Assembly: GCA_904420465.1 (NCBI GenBank)
Contig: CAJFVL010000029.1
Location: 1 to 34,129, forward strand
DNA length: 34,129 nt
From: an uncultured Clostridium sp.
Lineage (GTDB): Bacteria; Bacillota; Clostridia; Oscillospirales; Oscillospiraceae
Direction: 5' to 3'
Shown here one piece after another: positions 3,966 to 31,051 of this stretch. The notes below the pieces were generated by a model. It was not told where the DNA came from. It saw nothing but the letters and a program-made list of their open reading frames with translations, and searched no databases. Position numbers and translations under genes: made by a program. How positions within the stretch are numbered: position 1 is the stretch's first letter; each line of letters opens with the position of its first letter.

Positions 3966-4167
3966 ATCCGGCCGGCGGCGGATTTTACCCCGCCCCGACC
4001 ATAAGCCTCTGCTCACCTCCCTCTTATTTCCTGCTGACAGGCGGACCTGTTCCGGTCTAAAATGGAAGGGAGCCGGGCGGGTTCGTGCTGAAGGCCGCCT
4101 GCGGCGCCTGCCGCGGGACGGCGATCCATTCCACACCATTTACTTATAACAGAAAGGACTGATACCC

Positions 4168-4665
4168 ATGAACCACTATATGCGCGAGTTCGTCAACGCC
4201 ACCGCGGAGCTGCTGTGCTCTGAGCAGGTTCGGATGATGGGCCGCTGGAAGCACCATGGCCCCGTCACCACTCTGGACCACTCCCTGTTTGTGGCCTACC
4301 TGTCCTTCCGGGCGGCGCGGGCGCTGGGGCTGGATGCCGGGGCGGCCGCCAGGGGCGGGCTGCTTCATGATCTGTACCTGTACGATTCCAGGGACAAGTC
4401 CGCCCACCCCGGATGGCAGTGCTTCGACCATCCCCGGGCGGCCGCCCGGAACGCCGAGCAGCTGACCGAGTTGACGGACAAGGAGCGCAACATTATTCTG
4501 TCCCACATGTGGCCTCTGGGGGGACAGCTGCCCCGGTCTCTGGAGGCATGGCTGGTAGACCTGGTGGATACCCTGTGTGCCGGCCTGGAGCTGAGCGGGC
4601 TGTATCGGCCCTCCCAACTGCGGGAGCGGCTGGGCGTGTGTCCGCTGCGGGCTGCCTCTGCCTGA
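4168..4665 (+). CDS. HD-domain phosphohydrolase-like protein
   Basis: The 165-residue protein has the metal-binding pattern of the HD superfamily: H38 in LDHS, the H67-D68 doublet in GLLHDLY, H113 in SHMWPL and the aspartates of VDLVD near residue 131. HD proteins hydrolyse phosphate esters of nucleotides or signalling molecules, but the substrate cannot be read from sequence. The Shine-Dalgarno AGAAAGGA lies about 10 bases before the ATG. It stands alone, 200 bases after proA and with a terminator just behind it, so it is probably a separate unit. Confidence 0.85.
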   Translation: MNHYMREFVNATAELLCSEQVRMMGRWKHHGPVTTLDHSLFVAYLSFRAARALGLDAGAAARGGLLHDLYLYDSRDKSAHPGWQCFDHPRAAARNAEQLTELTDKERNIILSHMWPLGGQLPRSLEAWLVDLVDTLCAGLELSGLYRPSQLRERLGVCPLRAASA

Positions 4666-4801: not shown

Positions 4802-4876
4802 GCTATCATGTAGTGGACGAACATGGATGCAGAGGCGGAAGGTCCGCCCGCTGCGCACAGGAGGACTGACGCCAGT

Positions 4877-5563
4877 ATGAAGTTTGAGGAGACCCGGAGC
4901 ATGGACGCCAAGCGCAGGCAGCTGCTGGAGGCGGGAGTGCAGATGATGGACCCCGCCGCCGTCTATGTGGATGACGCTGTCACTGTGGGGGAGGGGACTC
5001 TGCTGCTGCCCGGCACCATTCTGCGGGGAAACACCCGGATCGGGCCCAACTGCCAGATTGGCCCCAATGTGATGCTCACGGACTGCGTGGTGGAGGAGGG
5101 CTGCACCATCAACGCCTCCCAATGTGAGGAGAGCCGCATCTGCAGGAACTGCCAGATTGGCCCCTACACCCATATCCGGCCCCACTGCGTGGTGGGGGAG
5201 GGGTCCAAGATCGGCGCCTTTGTCCAGCTGAAAAACTGCAGCCTGGGCGAGGGCACCAAAATGGCGCACCTGACCTATGTGGGAGACAGCGACGTGGGCG
5301 ATCACTGCAACTTCGGCTGCGGTACCGTCACCTGCAACTACGACGGCTTCCAGAAATCCCGCACTACGATAGGCAGCAATGTATTTGTGGGCTGCAATAC
5401 CAACTTTGTACCCCCGGTGAAGGTGGGAGACGGGGCCTATATCGCCGCTGCCACCACCGTGACCCAGGATGTTCCTGCCGACGCCATGGTCATCGGCCGC
5501 ACCCGCCAGCAGGTCAAGGAGGGCTGGGCTGCGGTCAACCGCGAGAAGAAAGGCGGACGGTGA
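4877..5563 (+). CDS. glmU: GlmU-like left-handed beta-helix acetyltransferase, no uridylyltransferase half
   Basis: The protein matches the C-terminal half of GlmU, which acetylates glucosamine-1-phosphate on the route to UDP-GlcNAc. It consists almost wholly of hexapeptide repeats such as IGPNCQIGPNVML. The GlmU acetyltransferase site is recognisable in KMAHLTYVGD (catalytic His), GCGTVTCNYDG and the late TTVTQDV. The N-terminal pyrophosphorylase domain, about 230 residues in full-length GlmU, is absent, and no such gene lies upstream. ATG 4877 has AGGAGG 12 bases upstream; ATG 4901 with GAGGAG at 9 bases is equally credible. It sits before prs, the usual place of glmU in Firmicutes. Confidence 0.8.
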   Translation: MKFEETRSMDAKRRQLLEAGVQMMDPAAVYVDDAVTVGEGTLLLPGTILRGNTRIGPNCQIGPNVMLTDCVVEEGCTINASQCEESRICRNCQIGPYTHIRPHCVVGEGSKIGAFVQLKNCSLGEGTKMAHLTYVGDSDVGDHCNFGCGTVTCNYDGFQKSRTTIGSNVFVGCNTNFVPPVKVGDGAYIAAATTVTQDVPADAMVIGRTRQQVKEGWAAVNREKKGGR

Positions 5564-15010: not shown

Positions 15011-16093
15011 TTAGTAACCCACCTGTTCAGCACCATATTCGGCCTGATCTTGCGTAAATCCCTCAAATAGCAATTGATCTATCAGTCCTTCACGGGAAAA
15101 AGAAGTTATATCCATATACGATGCGGCGGCTTCCGCAGCTTCCTGGTTCCAGTCTGCCCCGCAGTTATCTATAGCGTACTGCACTTCTGTAGGGAGAAAC
15201 CCCTCATAAGTCAATTGATCGTGCAGTCCACTATATGAAAACCCGGATAAATCCAAATAACTTTGCGCTGTTCTTAGCGCCTGTTCGTTCCAGTCAGCTC
15301 CACAATTTGCAACGGCATATTCCGCTTCCGCTGTGGTGTAACCCTCAAACTCCAATTGTTCTATTAACCCGCTCGCCGAGAAATGTGATATGCTCAAATA
15401 AGAATTTGCCTGACTGAGTGCGTTTTGTTCTCCAATAGTCGCAGTATCTTGGGATGCGCCGGTGTTTAGGGATACGCCGGTATTTTGACTTGGCTCTTGG
15501 ATCTGCAACGCTCCGTCTGTTTCTTCTTTCTGGTTATCTCCGAAGGAGAAGATAACGAATATTACTGCTGCCGCGGCAACAATCGAAGCGATCGGCCACC
15601 ACTTTTTCAATGTTTTTTTATTGCCTTTTCCGGGAGTGTATGTTCCTGACTCCAGCTCCTGCTGGCATTCCTCTACTGATGACTCCAGTCCGCCGGCCAG
15701 CCCTGCGGCGGTCTGTGCTCCCGTTGTCAACCGCAGGTCTCCGCCGGTGTGCTTTACAATCAACACATCGGAATCGGCTGTAACGCTGATAATCGACATG
15801 ACCGGGTATGTCATCACGTTATGATCATTGGCGACAATTAATTTGGAATTTGCCAGGGCGCAGGCGCAAAGGCTGCCGCTGTTGTCCGTGCCCATAAAGG
15901 CCATGGTGACCTGCGGGTCAGGAGCGATGTACTGTTCAACATGTTCAAACAGCCGTCGGCTGTCTATCACAGAAGCACCATTAAAAGTGTTGAAATAACG
16001 GCAGTATTCCATCATGCCGTCGGCGCTTACCAAATCGTTTGATTTCAGTTTAAACAGCTCTACATCGGCACTTTTTCGAAATCGCAGCCCCAT
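15011..16093 (-). CDS. Membrane protein with Ltp-type repeats, candidate superinfection exclusion protein
   Basis: The 360-residue protein has a PH-like beta-rich region (about residues 60-125), one transmembrane helix (about 164-184), a polar linker and three repeats of about 45 residues (from 225, 273 and 320). The repeat pattern is A.SYL..S.FS..GL..QL.FEGYT..EA.YAV.NCGADWN, that of host-cell surface-exposed lipoproteins (PF07553). In Streptococcus phage TP-J34 the Ltp lipoprotein with such repeats blocks DNA injection by other phages. Here the anchor is a transmembrane helix, not a lipobox. ATG 16093 has AGAGGGG 7 bases upstream; ATG 16099 is an alternative. Its lower GC suggests a moron. 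Confidence 0.8.
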   Translation of the reverse strand: MGLRFRKSADVELFKLKSNDLVSADGMMEYCRYFNTFNGASVIDSRRLFEHVEQYIAPDPQVTMAFMGTDNSGSLCACALANSKLIVANDHNVMTYPVMSIISVTADSDVLIVKHTGGDLRLTTGAQTAAGLAGGLESSVEECQQELESGTYTPGKGNKKTLKKWWPIASIVAAAAVIFVIFSFGDNQKEETDGALQIQEPSQNTGVSLNTGASQDTATIGEQNALSQANSYLSISHFSASGLIEQLEFEGYTTAEAEYAVANCGADWNEQALRTAQSYLDLSGFSYSGLHDQLTYEGFLPTEVQYAIDNCGADWNQEAAEAAASYMDITSFSREGLIDQLLFEGFTQDQAEYGAEQVGY

Positions 16094-16135: not shown

Positions 16136-16600
16136 TCACTGGGCCTTCTTCAGCTCGGCGATTTCCTGGGACATGGAGCGCATGGCCAGCTTCATCATGT
16201 CCATGTCGCTGCGAAGCAGCTCCAATTCGCTCTTGGCGGCCAGCTGGTCCAGCCGCTCCATAATGGCGTCGTGACCCTCAAAGAGTAAATCCAGCTTGCG
16301 GTTTATATCGGCCTCCAGCAGGACGGCGGTCTGCTGGGCCCGGTCCTCCACCCGGTCCAGGCGGTCCTTGATGCCGGAAATTTCGGTCCGCATAGCCTCT
16401 TGACCGGATTTGAGACCGGAAATTTCGGTCCGCATAGCCTCTTGACCGGATTTGAGACCGGAAATTTCGGTCCGCATAGCCTCTTGACCGGATTTGAGAC
16501 CGGAAATGTCCTCCTGGATGGGCTTTAGCTTTTGGTCGATGCGGGTCTCCAGACCCTTCATCATTTGCGCGATGGCCTGTAAATCTTTCTCTTCTAACAT
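16136..16600 (-). CDS. Coiled-coil protein with internal repeats
   Basis: The 154-residue protein is predicted almost entirely alpha-helical and coiled-coil. Three consecutive copies of SGLKSGQEAMRTEI occur at about residues 33-74, and leucine/isoleucine heptads follow to the end (ELELLRSDMDMMKLAMRSM). There is no signal peptide or membrane segment. AAAGGAG lies 8 bases before ATG 16600. It sits directly downstream of the repressor gene and is probably co-transcribed with it in the lysogen. I do not know a function; similar repeat coiled coils are common next to prophage repressors in clostridia. Confidence 0.75.
   Translation of the reverse strand: MLEEKDLQAIAQMMKGLETRIDQKLKPIQEDISGLKSGQEAMRTEISGLKSGQEAMRTEISGLKSGQEAMRTEISGIKDRLDRVEDRAQQTAVLLEADINRKLDLLFEGHDAIMERLDQLAAKSELELLRSDMDMMKLAMRSMSQEIAELKKAQ
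16376..16501. repeat. Three tandem 42-bp repeats
   Basis: The unit is in frame and encodes SGLKSGQEAMRTEI. The three copies are almost or fully identical, so the copy number has probably changed recently by slippage or recombination. Confidence 0.85.
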
Positions 16601-16631
16601 AGCAATCTCTCCTTTCCTTTCAGCGGTCGGA

Positions 16632-17489
16632 TCACACAATGATATCCCGTGTCTTGGGGTCGTACCCACCCAGCACACGGCCCAGCACCCGCAGCTCGGC
16701 AAAGGGAGGGATCTCAATGTCCGCATACTCCGGATTCAGGGAGTGCAGCTTCACCTGCTGGGTGGTCTCATCCCGCCGCAGCTGCTTGCAGTATGATTTC
16801 CCGTCCAGGACAAAGATTCCGATCTCTCCATTGTCCAGAACAGGAGCGGCCTGGATAAAAACGGTGGCCCCGTCCGGGATGCGGGGCTCCATGGAGGTCC
16901 CGGAGATCAGCACGCCGAAATTCGTCTTGGCGGGCACATAATCGGACGGGTACTGCTCGATGTGGCTGGGCGGGATATCCACCGGATTTCCCAGGCCGGC
17001 GGCGGAGGGCTGGTCGAACACCTGGACCTCAGTCATCCCGTGGGCGCGCCTTATTTTGGGAATGGAAATCACTTTGGAATTTCTCTGGGGCGGCTTTGGA
17101 GCCGCTGTGATTTCAGCCGCGCTTTCATACTCCATGATCAGCTTGACCGCCCCCTTGCCGTGGTCGGTCAGCTTGTCGTAGCCGCGGGCTATTTTCTGCG
17201 CCTCCTCCGAGAGATCGGAGGGGGCCGTATTTGTTTTTGACAGATTAGATACTGATTCAGAATCCCTGGGCGAGTACAGATCAATAATAGAGATACCGAG
17301 GACCTCGCATATTTTGGGAACCATATCAACATCAGGTGAATTATTGCCACGAGTCCAATTGTTTACAGTTCCCTTGCTGATGTTTAATTTGTCGGCAAGC
17401 TGAACCTGGGTGATACCAGCATTTTTCATGGCATCAATCAAATTTAGACGGATGCGCTCACGCAAAGAGACATCAGTATTGGACCCCAT
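16632..17489 (-). CDS. CI-like prophage repressor, XRE HTH plus S24 peptidase
   Basis: This is the probable lysogeny repressor. Residues 10-72 form an XRE helix-turn-helix (ITQVQLADKLNISKGTVNNWTRG). Residues about 160-285 form a LexA/CI S24 autopeptidase with the likely Ala-Gly cleavage site A164-G165, nucleophile S199 (SGTSMEP) and general-base K235 (SYCKQL). This architecture predicts RecA-stimulated self-cleavage and induction by DNA damage. ATG 17489 has a near-perfect AGGAGGTGA just upstream; the longer open frame is not supported. It faces the Cro-like gene across a 141-base operator region. Confidence 0.93.
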   Translation of the reverse strand: MGSNTDVSLRERIRLNLIDAMKNAGITQVQLADKLNISKGTVNNWTRGNNSPDVDMVPKICEVLGISIIDLYSPRDSESVSNLSKTNTAPSDLSEEAQKIARGYDKLTDHGKGAVKLIMEYESAAEITAAPKPPQRNSKVISIPKIRRAHGMTEVQVFDQPSAAGLGNPVDIPPSHIEQYPSDYVPAKTNFGVLISGTSMEPRIPDGATVFIQAAPVLDNGEIGIFVLDGKSYCKQLRRDETTQQVKLHSLNPEYADIEIPPFAELRVLGRVLGGYDPKTRDIIV

Positions 17490-17511
17490 AGAATCACCTC
17501 CTGTTAAAGGC

Positions 17512-17540
17512 ATCGTAGCACAAAAAAAAATAAAAGTCAA
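17512..17540 (-). promoter_or_regulatory. Leftward repressor promoter
   Basis: On the - strand TTGACT and TACGAT are separated by exactly 17 bases, most of them T. It lies 23 bases before the repressor start and its -35 overlaps the operator half-site at 17536-17541. Confidence 0.8.
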
Positions 17541-17608
17541 GAAATTCGTGATTCCGGCTTGACAGTAGCGGTTTGTTGTGATATTATGCAGGCGAGTCAA
17601 GAATATCG
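17535..17608. promoter_or_regulatory. Candidate repressor/Cro operators
   Basis: Three GTCAAG half-sites lie here: 17536-17541 (+), 17558-17563 (as CTTGAC) and 17596-17601 (+). The first and third are part of a repeated 14-mer, AGTCAAGAA followed by W-W-TCG. They overlap the -35 of the leftward promoter, the -35 of the rightward promoter, and the rightward transcription start, as expected for competing repressor and Cro binding. Confidence 0.6.
17559..17587 (+). promoter_or_regulatory. Rightward early promoter (PR-like)
   Basis: A consensus TTGACA and TATTAT are separated by 17 bases, 44 bases before the Cro-like gene. It is the only strong + promoter I find for the early operon that follows. 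Confidence 0.88.
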
Positions 17609-17630
17609 CTACTTTTAGGAGGTGACTCCA

Positions 17631-17843
17631 ATGAATATCGCTGGAACAATCCGGGAGTATCTTAGAGACAATAAGATAAGGCAGACCACAATCTCGGAAA
17701 GATGTGGATGGTCAAAGCAAAAGACCAGCGCCATTATCCGCGGACAGCAAAAAATGACTGCCGAAGAAATGGCCGCTGTTTGTGAAGCGCTTGGCGTACC
17801 ATACGATTATTTCTATCGCCGGGCCGACAACCAGGGGGCGTGA
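17631..17843 (+). CDS. Cro-like XRE regulator
   Basis: The 70-residue protein is a single XRE helix-turn-helix domain (IRQTTISERCGWSKQKTSAIIRG), ending EALGVPYDYFYRRADNQGA. It is divergent from the repressor and is the first gene of the rightward operon, so a Cro-like role in blocking the repressor promoter is likely. AGGAGGTGA precedes ATG 17631; the in-frame GTG 17622 lies inside that site and is rejected. The last 24 bases of the gene, stop included, recur at 19024-19047. Confidence 0.88.
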   Translation: MNIAGTIREYLRDNKIRQTTISERCGWSKQKTSAIIRGQQKMTAEEMAAVCEALGVPYDYFYRRADNQGA

Positions 17844-17868
17844 AAACGAATGAAAGGAAGTGTACAGC

Positions 17869-18114
17869 ATGGTACGAAATCTATCAGCATGTTTTCCCAT
17901 TACACTAGCACCCAAAGAAGCAGAACAGATTCTAGCGACCAGTGATCTGCGGCGGTTGGTAGACCAATTCTCAAGGGGAATTTTAGAAAAAAATCCCACG
18001 ACGCTGGAGGCACAGGCTGTGCTTGTCACGACGTGGGAAACAGTTCTGAAAAACGCGAGGTTCAGTCTTCCGAATCAGCAAAAGGGGGCGGAGCAATTTC
18101 AATCTCAAACTTAA
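17869..18114 (+). CDS. Small phage protein of unknown function
   Basis: The 81-residue protein, mostly alpha-helical by composition (LAPKEAEQILATSDLRRLVDQF), has no motif that I recognise. AAAGGAA lies about 10 bases before ATG 17869; GTG 17860 is an alternative. Its last 53 bases overlap the 3' end of the leftward zinc-ribbon gene, the first of four such tail-to-tail overlaps in a row. It follows the Cro-like gene by 25 bases and is presumably read from the same promoter. Confidence 0.6.
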   Translation: MVRNLSACFPITLAPKEAEQILATSDLRRLVDQFSRGILEKNPTTLEAQAVLVTTWETVLKNARFSLPNQQKGAEQFQSQT

Positions 18115-18331
18115 ATCCGCTATCTGGCGGGATATAGCACCCGTCTATCACTGATTCATATTCAATCGCTCTCAAAGCATCCATAGCATTTTTCATTAGG
18201 AAAAGGTCATTCTCAGGGAGCTGCTGGCCGCAGTTTTGGCAAATAATTGGGGCCTGGAGTTCTTGCCCGCGCGGTGCAAACTGCATTTTGCATCCGCAAA
18301 CTTTACATGTAAGGGTAAATTTACTGAGCAT
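18062..18331 (-). CDS. Zinc-ribbon protein, first leftward cassette
   Basis: The 89-residue protein starts with a four-cysteine zinc ribbon (TCKVCGCKMQF and CQNCGQQL) at about residues 8-40. An acidic helical and beta C-terminus without known similarity follows. GGGGGTGA lies 7 bases before ATG 18331. It points against the early operon and has its own promoter 28 bases upstream in the repeated element at 18359. No terminator is evident after it; transcripts could run antisense into the Cro-like gene. Confidence 0.65.
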   Translation of the reverse strand: MLSKFTLTCKVCGCKMQFAPRGQELQAPIICQNCGQQLPENDLFLMKNAMDALRAIEYESVIDGCYIPPDSGFKFEIEIAPPPFADSED

Positions 18332-18358
18332 TAGTTTCACCCCCTTCCTACCACCCAA

Positions 18359-18442
18359 ATTCTACCACAGGCGGCAGGGAGGGGCAAGAGAGAAAACAAA
18401 ACCCCGGCCGGGCCGGGGGCGTGGGAGGGGGTGAGAGGGGTG
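18359..18442 (-). repeat. Repeated terminator-promoter element R1
   Basis: On the - strand it reads, in order: a hairpin CCCCCGGC-CCGGCCGGGG followed by TTTTGTTTTC (terminator), then TTGCCC, 17 bases and TGGTAGAAT (extended -10; -35 at 18382-18387, -10 at 18359-18364). On the + strand the same bases carry the GGAGGGGGTGAG ribosome binding site and the GTG start of the next + gene. It matches R3 in 78 of 84 positions. Confidence 0.65.
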
Positions 18443-18616
18443 GACGATTTAACCGAAATCAAAGAAAAACTGGCAGCCATTGAATCACTACTTCAACGGC
18501 TGCCAGAGATCCAGGCCGCGACCTTTATTCAAATGCAGGAGGAGTATCAAACGGCCAGGATGCAGGGGAAAAAGAGCTCTGATCTTTGGGTCATTGCTCC
18601 GCCCAATTTGCGATAA
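18440..18616 (+). CDS. Small coiled-coil phage protein
   Basis: The 58-residue protein is helical (LTEIKEKLAAIESLLQRL), with no known domain. I chose GTG 18440, which lies inside the end of R1 with GGAGGGGGTG about 7 bases upstream; GTG 18431 is in frame but overlaps that site. The last 26 bases overlap the 3' end of the leftward DUF6173-like gene. Confidence 0.55.
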   Translation: MDDLTEIKEKLAAIESLLQRLPEIQAATFIQMQEEYQTARMQGKKSSDLWVIAPPNLR

Positions 18617-18962
18617 ATCCGATTTTCCTTTTGGGCTGGTCTGGTGCCTTGGGGACAGCCATAAGTAAGAAATTTAACTGGCTGATATGCTGAATCAGTG
18701 TTGCCATTGTTCCATTGACATAACCGCGGAATACCATCAAAACTGATTCCTCATATCCAATTTGTGTGACCTCCATGAGAGTGGACTGGCCAAAGTTAGT
18801 AAGTAAAAGGCCGACATCATGGTCTTGGTCTAAAGATCGCTGAAAATCCTGCACATACTTTTTGATGATTTTAAATTGGGTGTCGGAAAAACTATCTGAT
18901 GCTGGATTATAAGGAACCGAGGTAAAGGCGGACATATCAGGAATGGTTAAATCAAACTCCAT
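18591..18962 (-). CDS. DUF6173-like protein, second leftward cassette
   Basis: The 123-residue protein has the pattern I recall for the uncharacterised DUF6173 family. It has IIKKYVQDFQRSLDQDHDVGLLL, FGQSTLMEVTQIGYE, FRGYVNG and LIQHISQLNFLLMAV, then a conserved end with RKIGF. No catalytic residues are evident. ATG 18962 has AGGAGG 11 bases upstream; GTG 18974 overlaps that site. Its own promoter is in R2, and its transcript would end at the R1 hairpin after running antisense over the small + gene. Confidence 0.7.
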   Translation of the reverse strand: MEFDLTIPDMSAFTSVPYNPASDSFSDTQFKIIKKYVQDFQRSLDQDHDVGLLLTNFGQSTLMEVTQIGYEESVLMVFRGYVNGTMATLIQHISQLNFLLMAVPKAPDQPKRKIGFIANWAEQ

Positions 18963-18992
18963 GTAATTTTCCACCTCCTTTCTACCACCTAA

Positions 18993-19063
18993 ATTCTACC
19001 ACAGGCAGGAAGGGGAGGGCAAGCGGGCCGACAACCAGGGGGCGTGAGATGTGAAGGAGGTGA
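18993..19063 (-). repeat. Repeated promoter element R2, hybrid copy
   Basis: ATTCTACCACAGGC matches the left half of R1 and R3, giving a leftward promoter TTGCCC, 18 bases, TAGAAT. The GC hairpin is missing. Instead, bases 19024-19047 are identical to the last 24 bases of the Cro-like gene, followed by GTGAAGGAGGTGAG, the ribosome binding site of the next + gene. It looks like a recombinant of the element with the cro 3' end. Confidence 0.65.
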
Positions 19064-19068
19064 GGGGA

Positions 19069-19185
19069 ATGGATATTACGATCAGCGGGACGGCGGAAGA
19101 AATCGCCGCCCTGGTCCTGGCGGTACAAGGGCGGCGGAATGAAAATATTCCTAATTATGTTCCACTGGATTCAGGTAAAGAGTGA
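19069..19185 (+). CDS. 38-residue phage microprotein, paralogue A
   Basis: It begins MDITISGTAEEIAALVLAV, nearly identical in protein and DNA to the gene at 19425, but the rest (QGRRNENIPNYVPLDSGKE) is unrelated and short. AAGGAGGTGA lies 5 bases before ATG 19069, an excellent site. Its last 31 bases overlap the 3' end of the leftward gene at 19155. It looks like a paralogue whose C-terminus has been replaced at the junction with the leftward cassette. Confidence 0.55.
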   Translation: MDITISGTAEEIAALVLAVQGRRNENIPNYVPLDSGKE

Positions 19186-19316
19186 ATGGCATTGTATGAC
19201 TCTGTAATGAGGGCGTGAATTGTTGCTCCATCCAACGGTTTGACCCCACTTTTTTGGAACCACACAGAAATGTATGCACATACAACCTCTACCGCCAGTT
19301 CTTTATCTGATTTCAT
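19155..19316 (-). CDS. 53-residue protein, third leftward cassette
   Basis: It begins MKSDKELAVEVVCAYISVWF and ends LITESYNAIHSLPE. The composition is helical, with no membrane segment or metal site, and resembles small clostridial prophage proteins of unknown function. GGAGGTG lies 6 bases before ATG 19316. Its promoter is in R3. R2 downstream lacks the hairpin, so its transcript probably reads into the DUF6173-like gene. Confidence 0.55.
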   Translation of the reverse strand: MKSDKELAVEVVCAYISVWFQKSGVKPLDGATIHALITESYNAIHSLPESSGT

Positions 19317-19343
19317 TTTGAACACCTCCTCTCTGCTGCCCAA

Positions 19344-19427
19344 ATTCTACCACGGGCGGCAGGAAGGGGCAAGAGAGAAAGCAAACCCCCGGCCGGGCCG
19401 GGGGCGTGAGAGGGGGTGAGAGGCGTG
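19344..19427 (-). repeat. Repeated terminator-promoter element R3
   Basis: On the - strand, a CCCCCGG/CCGGGGG hairpin (19386-19404) is followed by TTTGCTTTC. The leftward promoter follows: TTGCCC (19367-19372), 17 bases, TGGTAGAAT (-10 at 19344-19349). On the + strand it ends in GAGGGGGTGAG and the GTG start of the next + gene. It matches R1 in 78 of 84 positions. Confidence 0.65.
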
Positions 19428-19583
19428 GATATTACGATCAGCGGGACGGCGGAAGAAATCGCCGCCCTTGTATTAGCGGTAGAAGGGCAGCGGAAGCAGG
19501 AAATTAAACTGGAACTGGATGGGCTCAGGGTAGCGGACAGAGTGAAAAGAAACATTACTCTTCCAAACCTAACTGATTCATAA
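19425..19583 (+). CDS. 52-residue phage microprotein, paralogue B
   Basis: The N-terminal 19 residues MDITISGTAEEIAALVLAV are shared with the 38-residue gene at 19069. The remainder (QEIKLELDGLRVADRVKR) looks like an intact small domain. I recall similar short proteins in clostridial phages, but no function. GTG 19425 has the same ribosome binding site as the gene after R1. Its last 29 bases overlap the 3' end of the fourth leftward gene. Confidence 0.55.
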   Translation: MDITISGTAEEIAALVLAVEGQRKQEIKLELDGLRVADRVKRNITLPNLTDS

Positions 19584-19794
19584 GCCAGGTGTGGTAAGCA
19601 TACAGGACAAGCTGTGTATATTCCTGCGTGTACCTGACAGCGTTGTCCTGGACTGTTTGAAGCAAAAGAGACAGCCCTTCTTGCGTAAGAGAGTTGTCTA
19701 CCTGAAGTACATCCATTCGTCGGAGCTGCTGAAAGAGCTCTTTTTGATGGGCTTCCAGAAAGTCCTGAAAATCTTCAAAACTTAGCTTTTTCAA
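19555..19794 (-). CDS. Helical protein, fourth leftward cassette
   Basis: The 79-residue protein is alpha-helical (FEDFQDFLEAHQKELFQQLRRM and ending LYAYHTWLMNQLGLEE), with no known domain. The start is uncertain. TTG 19794 has AAAGGGG about 8 bases upstream and fits the predicted transcript start. ATG 19815 and 19818 lie in or next to the -10 box of the R4 promoter and would need a leaderless or upstream message. Its transcript would end at the R3 hairpin. Confidence 0.5.
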   Translation of the reverse strand: MKKLSFEDFQDFLEAHQKELFQQLRRMDVLQVDNSLTQEGLSLLLQTVQDNAVRYTQEYTQLVLYAYHTWLMNQLGLEE

Positions 19795-19816
19795 ACGAAC
19801 ATCCCCTTTCGCCATC

Positions 19817-19877
19817 ATTCTACCACGGGCGGGGGACGGGGACAAGAGAGAAAGCAAACCCCCGGCCTGGCCGGGGG
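19817..19877 (-). repeat. Repeated terminator-promoter element R4
   Basis: The leftward promoter is TTGTCC (19840-19845), 17 bases, TGGTAGAAT (-10 at 19817-19822). Upstream of it on the - strand is the hairpin CCCCCGG/CCGGGGG (19859-19877) followed by TTTGCTTTC. The + end differs from R1 and R3 after the hairpin and leads into a different gene with AAAGGAG. Confidence 0.6.
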
Positions 19878-19894
19878 CAGAAAGGAGCAAAACG

Positions 19895-20236
19895 ATGAGA
19901 CCAAAGACACGGGATCTGCCGGCGGTGACCGATCAGGAGATCCTGGCCTGTGACAATGTGCCGGTGGAGCTGGCTGCCCGGTATCTGGGCAGCAGCACGG
20001 CGACCCTGTACGAGGCCCTGCAGGACGAACGGGTGCCCTTCGGCTGGGCGGTGCAGCGCAACAGCAACTGGGCCTACAACATCAGCCCCGGAGCTCTGGT
20101 GCGCTACAAGCGGGAGGGGCTGCCCATGTACCGGCTGAAGGACGTTTCAGAGATCATCTGCGAGGACGTCAACCGGCTGATCGACCAACGGATGGCCCTG
20201 GTGGGACGGCTCACCAGCGCCCTGCTGGAGCAGTGA
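19895..20236 (+). CDS. Phage DNA-binding-like protein of unknown function
   Basis: The 113-residue protein has VPVELAARYLGSSTATLYEALQDERVPFGWAVQ, which reads like an excisionase/MerR-type helix-turn-helix that recognises DNA, followed by SPGALVRYKREG. It could be an excisionase or regulator, but it is a motif guess. AAAGGAG lies 8 bases before ATG 19895. It is in the early operon just after R4. Confidence 0.65.
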   Translation: MRPKTRDLPAVTDQEILACDNVPVELAARYLGSSTATLYEALQDERVPFGWAVQRNSNWAYNISPGALVRYKREGLPMYRLKDVSEIICEDVNRLIDQRMALVGRLTSALLEQ

Positions 20237-20248
20237 GGAGACCGCGCT

Positions 20249-20371
20249 ATGTGGGACCGGTTCAGAAGGGCCCACCCACGGCTGTACGAGGCGGTGGAGT
20301 GGGGTGTGCTGGCCCTGGCGGCGGGGGCGTTCCTGCTGGCGGCGGCAATGTTTTTGGAGAGGTGGTGTTGA
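20249..20371 (+). CDS. 40-residue single-pass membrane microprotein
   Basis: A charged N-terminus (MWDRFRRAHPR) precedes one hydrophobic helix (GVLALAAGAFLLAAAMFL) and a short tail. GAGGAG lies about 8 bases before the ATG. It starts 12 bases after the previous stop and ends 1 base before the next start, so it is translationally coupled. No family is recognised. Confidence 0.55.
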   Translation: MWDRFRRAHPRLYEAVEWGVLALAAGAFLLAAAMFLERWC

Positions 20372-20372
20372 C

Positions 20373-20576
20373 ATGCTGAGTACAAAAGCGCCCCCGGCGG
20401 ACCGGGAGCAAGTGATGGACGCTTTGGAAGAGCGCTTCGGCGCGGATCAGATCTGGCAGGTGGAGCGGCTGAGCCGGCACATCTTCCGGGCCTGGCTGCG
20501 CAGCGGCCGGGTGGCTATCGCCACGGTGGAGCCGGATGGGGATCTGTCCGTGCGGCTGCTGGAGGACCTGGACTGA
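20373..20576 (+). CDS. Small phage protein of unknown function
   Basis: The 67-residue protein has an alpha/beta pattern (REQVMDALEERFGADQIW, then RSGRVAIATVEPDGDLSVRLLEDLD). No domain is recognised. The start is ATG 20373, one base after the preceding stop, with AGGTGG upstream; the frame is open farther left but overlaps the membrane microprotein. It is followed by the predicted antisense RNA locus. Confidence 0.55.
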   Translation: MLSTKAPPADREQVMDALEERFGADQIWQVERLSRHIFRAWLRSGRVAIATVEPDGDLSVRLLEDLD

Positions 20577-20588
20577 TGGCAGCCGGAG

Positions 20589-20656
20589 CAAAAAAGAGCC
20601 CCGCGGCCCTGGAGAGACCGCGGGGCGGCACATCCAAAAGGACGCACCATGAGAAC
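20589..20656 (-). ncRNA. Predicted small leftward RNA
   Basis: A consensus - strand promoter at 20663-20691 is followed after about 35 bases by a perfect 9-bp terminator stem GCCCCGCGG/CCGCGGGGC (20598-20606 and 20618-20626). After TC comes a run of six T at 20595-20590. The predicted transcript is about 68 nt. It lies in the 127-base gap between two + genes and is antisense to that leader. A short reading frame (ATGTTCTCATGG) exists but has no good ribosome binding site. Confidence 0.6.
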
Positions 20657-20662
20657 ATCTGT

Positions 20663-20691
20663 ATTATACCACGGCCCAGGCCGATTGACAA
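20663..20691 (-). promoter_or_regulatory. Consensus leftward promoter of the small RNA
   Basis: On the - strand TTGTCA and TATAAT are separated by 17 bases, with TGG before the -10. This is the same layout as in R1 to R4 (extended -10, 17-base spacer) but closer to consensus. Confidence 0.75.
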
Positions 20692-20703
20692 GGGGGCGAG
20701 CAC

Positions 20704-21027
20704 ATGATCCCGGAAAATTTGACTAAGCTGTGGGATACCGAGGTGGCCCGGCTGGAGATTTTGTTTCTGGCGGATCACGGGGGAGGGGACCCTGACGCCC
20801 TGACTGCACCGGCCCTCACACCGGCGGGCCGCCGGGTAGCCCTGCGCCGGATGGGCTTCCGGGTGCGGGAGGAGTATGACATGCCCCGCGACCCCATGCG
20901 CCCGGTTGGACCGGACAACCGTGAGCCCTGGGTCCGGCTTACCAACGGCATCGCGGTCTGTTTGGACAGCGGCTTTGTGATCCGGTCAGTGAAAGGGGGC
21001 GGCCGGAATGGGCGAGACCAGCATTAA
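20704..21027 (+). CDS. Phage protein of unknown function
   Basis: The 107-residue protein has RRVALRRMGFRVREEYDMPRDP and ends VKGGGRNGRDQH; no domain is recognised. The ribosome site (AAGGGGGCGAG) is moderate. Its last 20 bases overlap the replication initiator gene, indicating coupling. Confidence 0.6.
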   Translation: MIPENLTKLWDTEVARLEILFLADHGGGDPDALTAPALTPAGRRVALRRMGFRVREEYDMPRDPMRPVGPDNREPWVRLTNGIAVCLDSGFVIRSVKGGGRNGRDQH

Positions 21028-21826
21028 GTCAGGCCGGAAAAAGGGCTTTGTGGTCCTGTTCCGGTCTGCCGCCCAGGACCAGCGGCTGAGCCTGGAGGCC
21101 CGGGGGCTGTTTGCCCTGATGATCTCGCTCCCGGAGGACTGGGAATATACCGTCTCCGGCCTGGCGGCCAAGGCGGGCTGCGGCCGGGAGAAGGTGCGCC
21201 GTCTGCTGAAGGAGCTGCAGACGGTGGGCTACCTGCTGCGGGAGCAGTCCCATGACAGCGGGGGCAAGTTCGGCGGCAACGTCTACGCCCTCCAGGACGA
21301 GGCGCCACCGTTGCCCGAAAACCCGTCCAACGGTGAGGCGGAAAAAGCACCGTTGCCCAGAAACACCGTCAACGGTGAAAACCGTCAGCGGGAAACACCG
21401 TCAGCGGGTTTTCCGCCACAACAGAATAAAGACTTAACAGAGAATAGAGACTTAACAGATCCCCCCTATAGTCCCCCCAAGGGGAACAGGGGTGGCAGGC
21501 GGAGCACAAAGTATGATCTGGCAGAGGAGGCCAAGCCCATCCTCCAGGCGTATGTGGGGGAGGACCGGGATCTGCACCAGACCCTGGGCGCCTTCATCCG
21601 ACAGCGGACGGAGCTGCGTGCCATCAACTCGGCCCGGGCCATCCGGATGCTGCTGAGGGAGCTGGACCGGCTGAGCGGGGGCCGCCGGGAGGACAAGCTG
21701 CTGCTGATCCAGCAGGCCATGGCCAACAGCTGGAAGTCGGTTTTCCCCCTGCGGAAGAGCGGGGGCGCATCAGCGCCCTCTGAGCCCGCCCGGGTAACGG
21801 AGGAGGAGGGGACCTATCTGCTATGA
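21008..21826 (+). CDS. Phage replication initiator / replisome organiser
   Basis: The 272-residue protein has an N-terminal winged-helix domain (about residues 20-95, with LSLEARGLFALMISLPEDWEYTVSGLAAKAGCGREKVRRLLKEL split by short loops). A low-complexity Asn/Pro/Gly linker (100-155) and a helical C-terminal domain (165-240) follow. This is the usual plan of phage initiators that bind origin repeats inside their own gene and load DnaB, and the next gene is DnaB-like. The linker is encoded by repeat-rich DNA, annotated as the candidate origin. ATGA overlap with the helicase start shows coupling. Confidence 0.8.
   Translation: MGETSIKSGRKKGFVVLFRSAAQDQRLSLEARGLFALMISLPEDWEYTVSGLAAKAGCGREKVRRLLKELQTVGYLLREQSHDSGGKFGGNVYALQDEAPPLPENPSNGEAEKAPLPRNTVNGENRQRETPSAGFPPQQNKDLTENRDLTDPPYSPPKGNRGGRRSTKYDLAEEAKPILQAYVGEDRDLHQTLGAFIRQRTELRAINSARAIRMLLRELDRLSGGRREDKLLLIQQAMANSWKSVFPLRKSGGASAPSEPARVTEEEGTYLL
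21306..21460. other. Candidate phage replication origin inside the initiator gene
   Basis: Short repeats are packed here. CACCGTTGCCC occurs twice, ACCGTCAGCGGG twice, and the palindrome CACCGTCAACGGTG once. A downstream A/T-rich pair of near-identical 19-mers, AGAATARAGACTTAACAGA, has an 18-base period. Iterons plus an A/T-rich unwinding region inside the initiator gene is the arrangement of lambda O and many phages. The assignment is by analogy. Confidence 0.55.
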
Positions 21827-30202: not shown

Positions 30203-31051
30203 ATGAAGGTTATTATTTCTGCGGCCTGTGCCATCGTGTGCGCAATTTTCCTGGTCCTCTGCGTAGAGCGTGTTTCTGTGGGCAATGTAGGTGTCGTGTA
30301 TAGCGCCGGGGGCGTGGAAGATGAGGTGCTTACTCAGGGGTGGCACCTGATGAATCCCCTGAAATCTGTCAAGCAGTTTCCTGTTTCCCAGCAACAGTTG
30401 GTACTGAGCAATAATCCAGGGGACTACAATACTGAGGAGCACCAGGACTGGTCCATCGACGCGCCCGCGGACGGCGGAATGGTCAAAATTAATTTGACTG
30501 TGAATTATAATTTCCTGCCGGATCGGGTGGTAGAGGTATACAAAAAGTTCAATGGCATGAGTGGTGAGACCATTGTGGAGAGCCGGGTGCAGAACAGCAT
30601 CATCGCCTATGTGAAAGAAGTCACCCCTCAATTCTCCGTAATGGACATTTACAGCGATAAAAAGAGCGAGGTAAACGAAGCAATCACCAACTATCTCAAT
30701 GAACGGCTGACCGAGGAATACGGGATCAATGTCTCCAGCGCTCTTGTCATCGACGTACAACTGGACACCACGCTCCAGCAAAAAATCCAGGCCAAGGAGC
30801 AGGCCAAGCAGGACGTGGAAATCGCCGAACTAGCCAAACAGACGGCGGAGGCTCAAGCCGAGACGAACCGTGTCATTGCAGAATCCGAGGCGCAGGTCAA
30901 ACTGATTGAGGCTCAGGCCGAAGCGGATGCCAACCAAATTATCTCCGAGTCAGTCACACCCGAATTGATCCAGATGCTGGAGGCCGAGGCGCGGATGGAG
31001 CACGGTTGGGTTACAGTACAGGGCGCAGGCACTGTAGTCGCCGGGGGATAA
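30203..31051 (+). CDS. SPFH/prohibitin-like membrane protein
   Basis: The 282-residue protein has an N-terminal membrane anchor (about 3-20) and an SPFH/band 7 domain (about 22-190). The domain has VSVGNVGVVYSAGGVEDEVL, GWHLMNPLKS and SSALVIDVQLD. An Ala/Glu/Gln-rich coiled coil (about 195-255) and a short C-terminus (HGWVTVQGAGTVVAGG) follow. SPFH proteins form ring-shaped membrane scaffolds; bacterial HflK/HflC cage the protease FtsH, which controls lambda lysogeny. GGAGCAATGTAAT precedes the ATG. Lower GC than its surroundings suggests transfer. Confidence 0.85.
   Translation: MKVIISAACAIVCAIFLVLCVERVSVGNVGVVYSAGGVEDEVLTQGWHLMNPLKSVKQFPVSQQQLVLSNNPGDYNTEEHQDWSIDAPADGGMVKINLTVNYNFLPDRVVEVYKKFNGMSGETIVESRVQNSIIAYVKEVTPQFSVMDIYSDKKSEVNEAITNYLNERLTEEYGINVSSALVIDVQLDTTLQQKIQAKEQAKQDVEIAELAKQTAEAQAETNRVIAESEAQVKLIEAQAEADANQIISESVTPELIQMLEAEARMEHGWVTVQGAGTVVAGG

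Follow-up and report, generated by a model that had tools for sequence, protein, structure and literature searches.

Why would a temperate phage keep a row of small genes pointing backwards inside its early lytic operon? The question was raised by a prophage in the 34,129-nucleotide (nt) contig CAJFVL010000029.1 (GenBank assembly GCA_904420465.1) of an uncultured Clostridium sp. of the Oscillospiraceae, the whole of which we refer to as the window. Between a cro-like gene and the replication genes of this prophage, four small leftward genes alternate with small rightward genes, and each leftward gene is headed by a copy (R1 to R4) of one promoter/leader element. This array is real, recurrent and modular. 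We assign a probability of about 0.7 to the reading that it is made of moron-like accessory cassettes, expressed in lysogeny and lying antisense in the early operon, which occupy several slots and are exchanged at the promoter block.

The promoter/leader element and the genes it heads

Inspection of the open reading frames (ORFs) confirmed the layout given in a preliminary description of this DNA: each of the four leftward genes converges on a rightward gene and overlaps it at the 3′ end, by 53, 26, 31 and 29 nt (Table 1). The common element that had been described ahead of each leftward gene was also found, and its pattern has four exact matches in the 2.35-Mb source assembly (133 contigs, completeness 88.6%), all of them in the array, against none for a reversed control. 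The promoter-like sites of R1 to R4 read TTGnCC, 17 to 18 nt, TAGAAT, all with TG preceding the −10; 11 promoter-like sites lie in 16500-21500, compared with 2.7 ± 1.5 in shuffled sequences. Direct repeats (D1 to D3) were found in the array region. A hairpin with a T-rich tail is present on the minus strand at three of the four junctions (R1, R3 and R4, as had been noted) and absent from R2. The claim that every leftward gene forms an autonomous promoter–gene–terminator unit therefore holds for the three junctions with a hairpin and fails at R2, before which no hairpin was found to end the transcript of cassette 3. Since the hairpin predicted to end each leftward transcript is located past the rightward partner, the predicted transcript would be antisense to the whole partner gene. 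The end of the cro-like gene is copied exactly in R2 over 24 nt (17820-17843 and 19024-19047), and partners 3 and 4 have in common an 85-nt block around their starts (88% identical); we read both as recombination scars. The one check on the earlier suggestion that the leftward promoters are independent of the repressor is that no copy of the repeat located in the cI/cro intergenic region was found within the array at 0 to 2 mismatches.

Leftward gene 2 belongs to DUF6173 (PF19670), with 69 bits against a curated cut-off of 27. Against Pfam, PHROGs and NCBIfam, the four leftward products gave no convincing match other than DUF6173 and phrog_3306, both of them families without an assigned function, and protein family searches returned no family for rightward small gene 1. 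The suggestion that these are defence genes gained nothing from PADLOC, in which none of the four products had a convincing match (best E 0.01). Leftward gene 4 likely starts at TTG 19794, preceded by the ribosome-binding site (RBS) GGGG, and hardly at the ATG 19818 taken by our gene caller, because that codon overlaps the −10 of R4.

To look for the element elsewhere, we built a sequence-only model, which includes the RBS, from ten elements. It gave 45 matches in 38 chosen sources and 10 in 56 viral loci, for which 44 of the 60 viral loci with DUF6173 were taken and L104-L119 were omitted as near copies of L103. Among these 55 matches, which include a probable chance match in L169 (its neighbour is by eye a DNA polymerase III gene), 54 head a leftward ORF of at least 40 codons and 43 head one that starts with ATG, compared with 27% and 10.7% of random positions (n = 11,000); part of this excess is built in, because the model contains the RBS. 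In a survey of 400 genomes of the family, 81 had a match at E≤0.01, the weak tail of which is surely mixed with chance matches, and 16 had one of at least 28 bits, five of these being seeds of the model. Several elements are clustered in genomes G206 (4+2), G247, G184, G216, G194 and G200, and at least two in loci L020, L151, L152, L153, L154, L155, L157 and L158. The viral contigs L098 (29 and 21 bits) and L120 (weaker, 16 bits) hold such clusters alongside DUF6173. The isolate phage Cormatin (L022) has a reversed gene with the element. Its depositors annotate this gene (1470-1862) from a later start (1739), while the element at 1867-1922 points to GTG 1862 and a product of 130 aa. In L165, a leftward-cassette gene with an element (2704-2889; 34% identical to that at L020 4682, E 1.4e-5) sits between apparent host genes, outside any obvious prophage.

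Among the recurring cassette genes, the ratio of nonsynonymous to synonymous differences (pN/pS) was 0.21-0.36 in eight of nine computed pairs (six leftward and three rightward in all), a set that leaves out one near-identical pair and one entry without a second sequence. The recurring leftward proteins keep their amino-acid sequence with synonymous sites near saturation. These values indicate purifying selection on recurring genes of either strand.

The reversed position was also counted for DUF6173. It occurs in 5 of the 400 family genomes, in three phage records (two phages), in ten plasmid records and in 60 viral-contig loci, many of them near-identical. Of 68 loci, 4 in which our gene caller did not pick the gene were set aside; the remaining 64 were reduced to 40 representatives, two of them with the gene at an edge. 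In 29 of the 38 scorable loci DUF6173 is opposite in strand to both neighbours, as against 76 of 813 other genes from all 64 loci. It commonly overlaps its convergent neighbour, and often lies one to three genes past the repressor/cro switch. A strand switch within five genes was seen in 19 of 34 viral-contig representatives; ten of the 19 switch genes, picked for their helix-turn-helix (HTH)-like look, all encode HTH repressor-like proteins, some of the other nine being by eye no repressors. In the Clostridioides difficile isolate phage phiCDKH02, the depositors' annotation places DUF6173 as a lone reversed gene amid HTH and antirepressor genes. The family was not named in the literature searched, and its fold gave no safe match.

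Borders of variation between related phages

Loci L010 and L011 are 99.8% identical over 6,650 nt rightward, starting at the RBS end of the element. Leftward of it, identity is random for more than 200 nt and the two loci have different leftward genes, of 55 and 101 codons. Their repressor and cro genes are different as well, and similarity, at 85%, returns at a distance of about 3.3 kb in L010 and 2.0 kb in L011. The exchanged segment therefore comprises immunity genes as well as cassettes and ends on the right at the element; because it also holds repressor and cro, the pair marks a border and no single-cassette swap. The L011 arrangement is repeated in L014, a contig of another dataset (100% over 2,700 nt). 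In L046 and L047 similarity resumes within the element, and between the window and L020 it resumes at 19817, within R4; the latter two match only in the element blocks (79-88%) and in the DNA right of R4 (79%), the intervening cassettes being unmatched. L020 also carries two cro-like genes (4102-4341 and 4807-5049) with different N-terminal DNA-binding parts and near-identical C-terminal ends, a cassette following each, which we read as a duplicated or hybrid switch gene.

Two comparisons come closer to changes of a single slot. From the element rightward, L158 matches L167 at 94.4% over 179 nt, with different leftward genes. L158 has an extra cassette between two genes, and the next rightward gene of L167 looks like these two joined into one. 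In L044 and L167 the cro genes match at 84.8% over 276 nt and the DNA downstream at 86% over 230 nt; the cassette that lies in between is present in L167 only. Whole cassettes recur as well: L041 has the DUF6173 cassette of the window and its partner as a single block, adjoining the cro gene, and an L020 cassette is found in L151 with both members. In Dulem virus 33 the HTH gene is followed by the conserved early gene that ends the array in the window and served as our anchor, nothing being annotated in between, and in L020 other cassettes precede this anchor gene. Content between the same two genes is thus absent or different in Dulem virus 33, in L020 and between L044 and L167, in keeping with the earlier proposal of moron-like units at a site of variable content. 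The expected cassette swaps bounded by the element were recovered as borders and as the near-slot changes of L158/L167 and L044/L167, L010/L011 giving a border only.

Weighing the readings

The architecture, its recurrence, the coding selection on recurring members and the borders of variable segments at the element being established from sequence, we propose the following course of events. In a temperate phage of an Oscillospiraceae host, the cassettes would sit in the early lytic operon, each being a leftward gene that carries a sigma-A-type promoter and leader of its own and is opposed to a rightward early gene. Repression of the early promoter in the lysogen would leave the leftward genes to be made singly, each from its own promoter. 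Induction would send rightward transcription across the leftward genes and damp them through interference and antisense pairing, as in a noncontiguous operon, by analogy with tai/ati of phi80 and, with the roles exchanged, tha/ith of 80alpha. General recombination between phages or slots at the promoter/RBS block could exchange, add or delete cassettes, and would leave the leftward genes intact because every cassette starts with nearly the same block. The products would benefit the host cell, and recombination would make use of the element instead of just sparing it.

Several observations weigh against this reading. In L010/L011, L046/L047 and window/L020 the whole immunity and cassette segment differs, which gives borders and not single-cassette swaps. 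Many loci come from draft or metagenome assemblies, where repeats can be misjoined, and the element-bearing loci were picked for holding matches; a stricter element pattern had no match in viral contigs. R2 lacks a hairpin, and one leftward pair of the nine has a pN/pS of 0.58. Searches of 50,697 phage records and of 30 further genomes, selected because they had hits to the element, the anchor or DUF6173, returned no homologue of leftward gene 1 or 4, and leftward gene 3, for which homologues were sought among the compared cassettes alone, has none there; the coding status of these three genes therefore rests on RBS, position and codon usage. Part of L022 and some small rightward genes escaped our home-made gene caller, which leaves errors in the neighbour strands of the DUF6173 and element-cassette counts. 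The missing homologues and the draft or metagenomic sources would also suit an artefact, either promoters and spurious antisense ORFs that arise by chance in GC-rich DNA or repeats that were misassembled. We consider this very improbable in view of the strand opposition of DUF6173, the pN/pS values, the excess of ORF starts at the element, and the reversed genes of the isolate phages Cormatin and phiCDKH02.

It is conceivable, though in our view doubtful, that the cassettes are effector/antidote pairs in tandem, each with a leftward immune effector and a convergent cognate gene that switches it off on induction, like tai/ati of phi80. The 45 matches gave 43 cassettes after omission of the two weakest, and 38 of these (without L168, L162, L163, L039 and L169) were compared together with two of L160 added by hand (n = 40). 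Where leftward genes were homologous between loci, the convergent partner was homologous in four of eight pairs (four of the five at ≥60% identity) and the neighbour beyond the element in none of the eight; for DUF6173 at ≥40% identity the counts were 15 versus 2 of 566 pairs. This co-inheritance, purifying selection on both members and the published precedent for the layout speak for such pairs, whereas DUF6173 has several unrelated partner families even among close relatives, homologous partners stand opposite unrelated leftward genes in four cases, and no defence family was matched in PADLOC. A leftward gene is often accompanied by the same partner, yet partners are also swapped. A defence role of the cassettes is a fair hypothesis. 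Its widest form is tentative: anti-phage pairs arranged as a plug-in array, integron-like with no integrase and spread in gut Oscillospiraceae phages, the slots of which, each with a lysogeny effector and a convergent early-lytic off-switch, would be filled, swapped and duplicated by ordinary recombination at the shared block.

If a single unit had been duplicated in tandem within one lineage, in place of exchange between phages, this would explain the cro-gene end in R2, the block common to partners 3 and 4, the two HTH genes of L020 with alike C-termini and the presence in L151 of the same zinc-ribbon cassette twice (95.6%). As the sole process it is unlikely, since leftward genes within one array are mostly unrelated and the L010/L011 and L158/L167 comparisons point to exchange; duplication and exchange are probably both at work. 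Less probable still is a purely antisense function, in which leftward transcripts silence the early operon and their ORFs are incidental. Such transcripts would indeed span the partner genes, but the recurring leftward proteins are conserved in amino-acid sequence, with synonymous sites close to saturation, and DUF6173 is found in phages and plasmids with other neighbours as well. We thus retain exchangeable moron-like cassettes as the preferred reading.

Prophage context and relation to known systems

In the window, host genes (read by eye from the ORFs; mfd and genes of proline synthesis are among them) precede the prophage. Its leftward part encodes an integrase, a bacterial-PH protein, an Ltp-type lipoprotein, a coiled-coil protein and a CI-like repressor; its rightward part holds the cro-like gene, the array and early genes. 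The anchor gene has a 97% match encoded on a contig of an uncultured Oscillospiraceae bacterium. The Ltp-type lipoprotein family has a reported role in superinfection exclusion, according to the part of the source used here (PMC3952083). Right of the array, a strong leftward promoter is directly followed by a two-hairpin unit, without a gene, for which Rfam gave no match; it may encode an RNA that is OOP-like or controls replication. Similar units, 56-72 nt long and related at the 5′ end, occur in L020, Cormatin, L039 and L167, that of Cormatin directly before the annotated replication initiation gene.

Table 1. Positions of the array, its elements and other features in the window
Feature	Position	Strand	Description
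Ltp-type lipoprotein	15014-16093	-	lysogeny module; PF07553, three repeats, E 2.9e-44
Coiled-coil protein	16136-16600	-	tandem repeat of 14 residues (ISGLKSGQEAMRTE) x3
CI-like repressor	16632..17489	-	HTH_3 and peptidase S24 domain matches
Predicted early rightward promoter	17559..17587	+	TTGACA-17-TATTAT, TG; 11/12 matches
cro-like HTH gene	17631..17843	+	first of early operon; last 24 nt copied in R2
Rightward small gene 1	17869..18114	+	81 aa from ATG 17869; 53-nt overlap with leftward gene 1; not called by gene caller
Leftward gene 1	18062..18331	-	89 aa; two CxxC pairs, zinc-ribbon-like; NF047912 E=4e-5, under that model's cut-off
Element R1	18335..18419	-	RBS/leader; promoter 18387-18359 TTGCCC-17-TAGAAT; hairpin 18418-18402; 61.4 bits
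Rightward partner 2	18440..18616	+	58 aa; family common to L091, L098, L041
Leftward gene 2	18591..18962	-	DUF6173 (PF19670, phrog_3306), E=5.3e-19
Element R2	18970..19047	-	promoter 19022-18993, spacer 18; no hairpin; 58.1 bits
Rightward partner 3	19069..19185	+	38 aa; phrog_10973 E=0.0099; 5′ part repeated in partner 4
Leftward gene 3	19155..19316	-	53 aa; no family found
Element R3	19321..19405	-	promoter 19372-19344, spacer 17; hairpin 19405-19385; 57.5 bits
Rightward partner 4	19425..19583	+	52 aa; phrog_10973 E=0.0049; 5′ part repeats partner 3; not called by gene caller
Leftward gene 4	19555..19794	-	79 aa from TTG 19794 (likely start); gene caller took ATG 19818; no homologue found
Element R4	19801..19878	-	promoter 19845-19817 TTGTCC-17-TAGAAT; hairpin 19878-19858; 44.4 bits
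Anchor gene	19895..20236	+	conserved early gene right of array; phrog_6058
Promoter and two-hairpin unit	20691-20590	-	TTGTCA-17-TATAAT, then unit of ~70 nt with terminator; z -7.3
SPFH/Band 7 protein	30203-31048	+	among rightward phage genes

The sieB gene of lambda and P22, an exclusion gene with its own promoter, is reversed in the early operon; unlike the array it is a single gene. The array genes agree with morons in being accessory, in having predicted promoters of their own (extended −10 sites at R1 to R4, conserved in relatives) and in lying antisense to lytic genes; hairpins that may serve as terminators are present at R1, R3 and R4 and absent at R2. They also fit a noncontiguous operon, defined by a gene with its own promoter lying antisense within an operon, as far as the promoter is predicted and the operon is deduced from gene order. 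The morons of Owen et al. 2020 (PMC7067206) are likewise accessory genes with their own promoter, antisense to lytic genes, and are single; the portion of that report relied on here describes no repeated element or array. The noncontiguous operon taiEcA/atiEcA of phi80 has a lysogeny-expressed gene reversed in the lytic operon that holds its counter-defence gene; in the sections of that report cited here, tai expression drops in the presence of Q and tai and ati are said to be always associated (PMC11364771). The likeness to the array is in this reversed layout. According to the same sections tai/ati is one pair in the late (Q) operon, whereas the array is in the early operon, has up to four slots and a repeated promoter element at which content changes, and the immune role of its products is hypothetical. 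In tha/ith of Staphylococcus aureus 80alpha, as described in the passages available to us, a small antisense gene with its own constitutive promoter lies in an overlapping operon that switches between lysogeny and lysis (PMC11087260). Here too the likeness is one of layout, an antisense gene with its own promoter; in those passages the roles are reversed, the immune gene (Tha, a HEPN protein) being in the cI operon and the antisense gene being the inhibitor, and there is a single pair.

The start-associated sequences (SAS and extended ESAS) of Cluster K mycobacteriophages also recur at the starts of small genes of different families. In the part of the source used, SAS is a 13-bp GGGATAGGAGCCC that precedes co-directional starts, with a proposed role in translation start, lies nearly always in one orientation and is not described as a swap point (PMC3203893). 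Inspection of our alignment against the GGGATAGGAGCCC consensus showed a different sequence in antisense orientation, and the element was not assigned to this class.

Moron and noncontiguous operon are known kinds; new are the multi-slot array, the shared promoter/leader at exchange borders, and its spread. Reversed single genes in lytic operons have lately been found to be prophage immune genes or inhibitors of these, and the authors of the tai study predict many such pairs in noncontiguous operons (PMC11364771). An array with a recognisable element provides a search rule, by which the element together with the lone reversed position flags unnamed small proteins, DUF6173 included. Related phages with different cassettes are natural swap experiments, and variable cassettes at a common start signal suggest a plug-in rack for genes used in dormancy.

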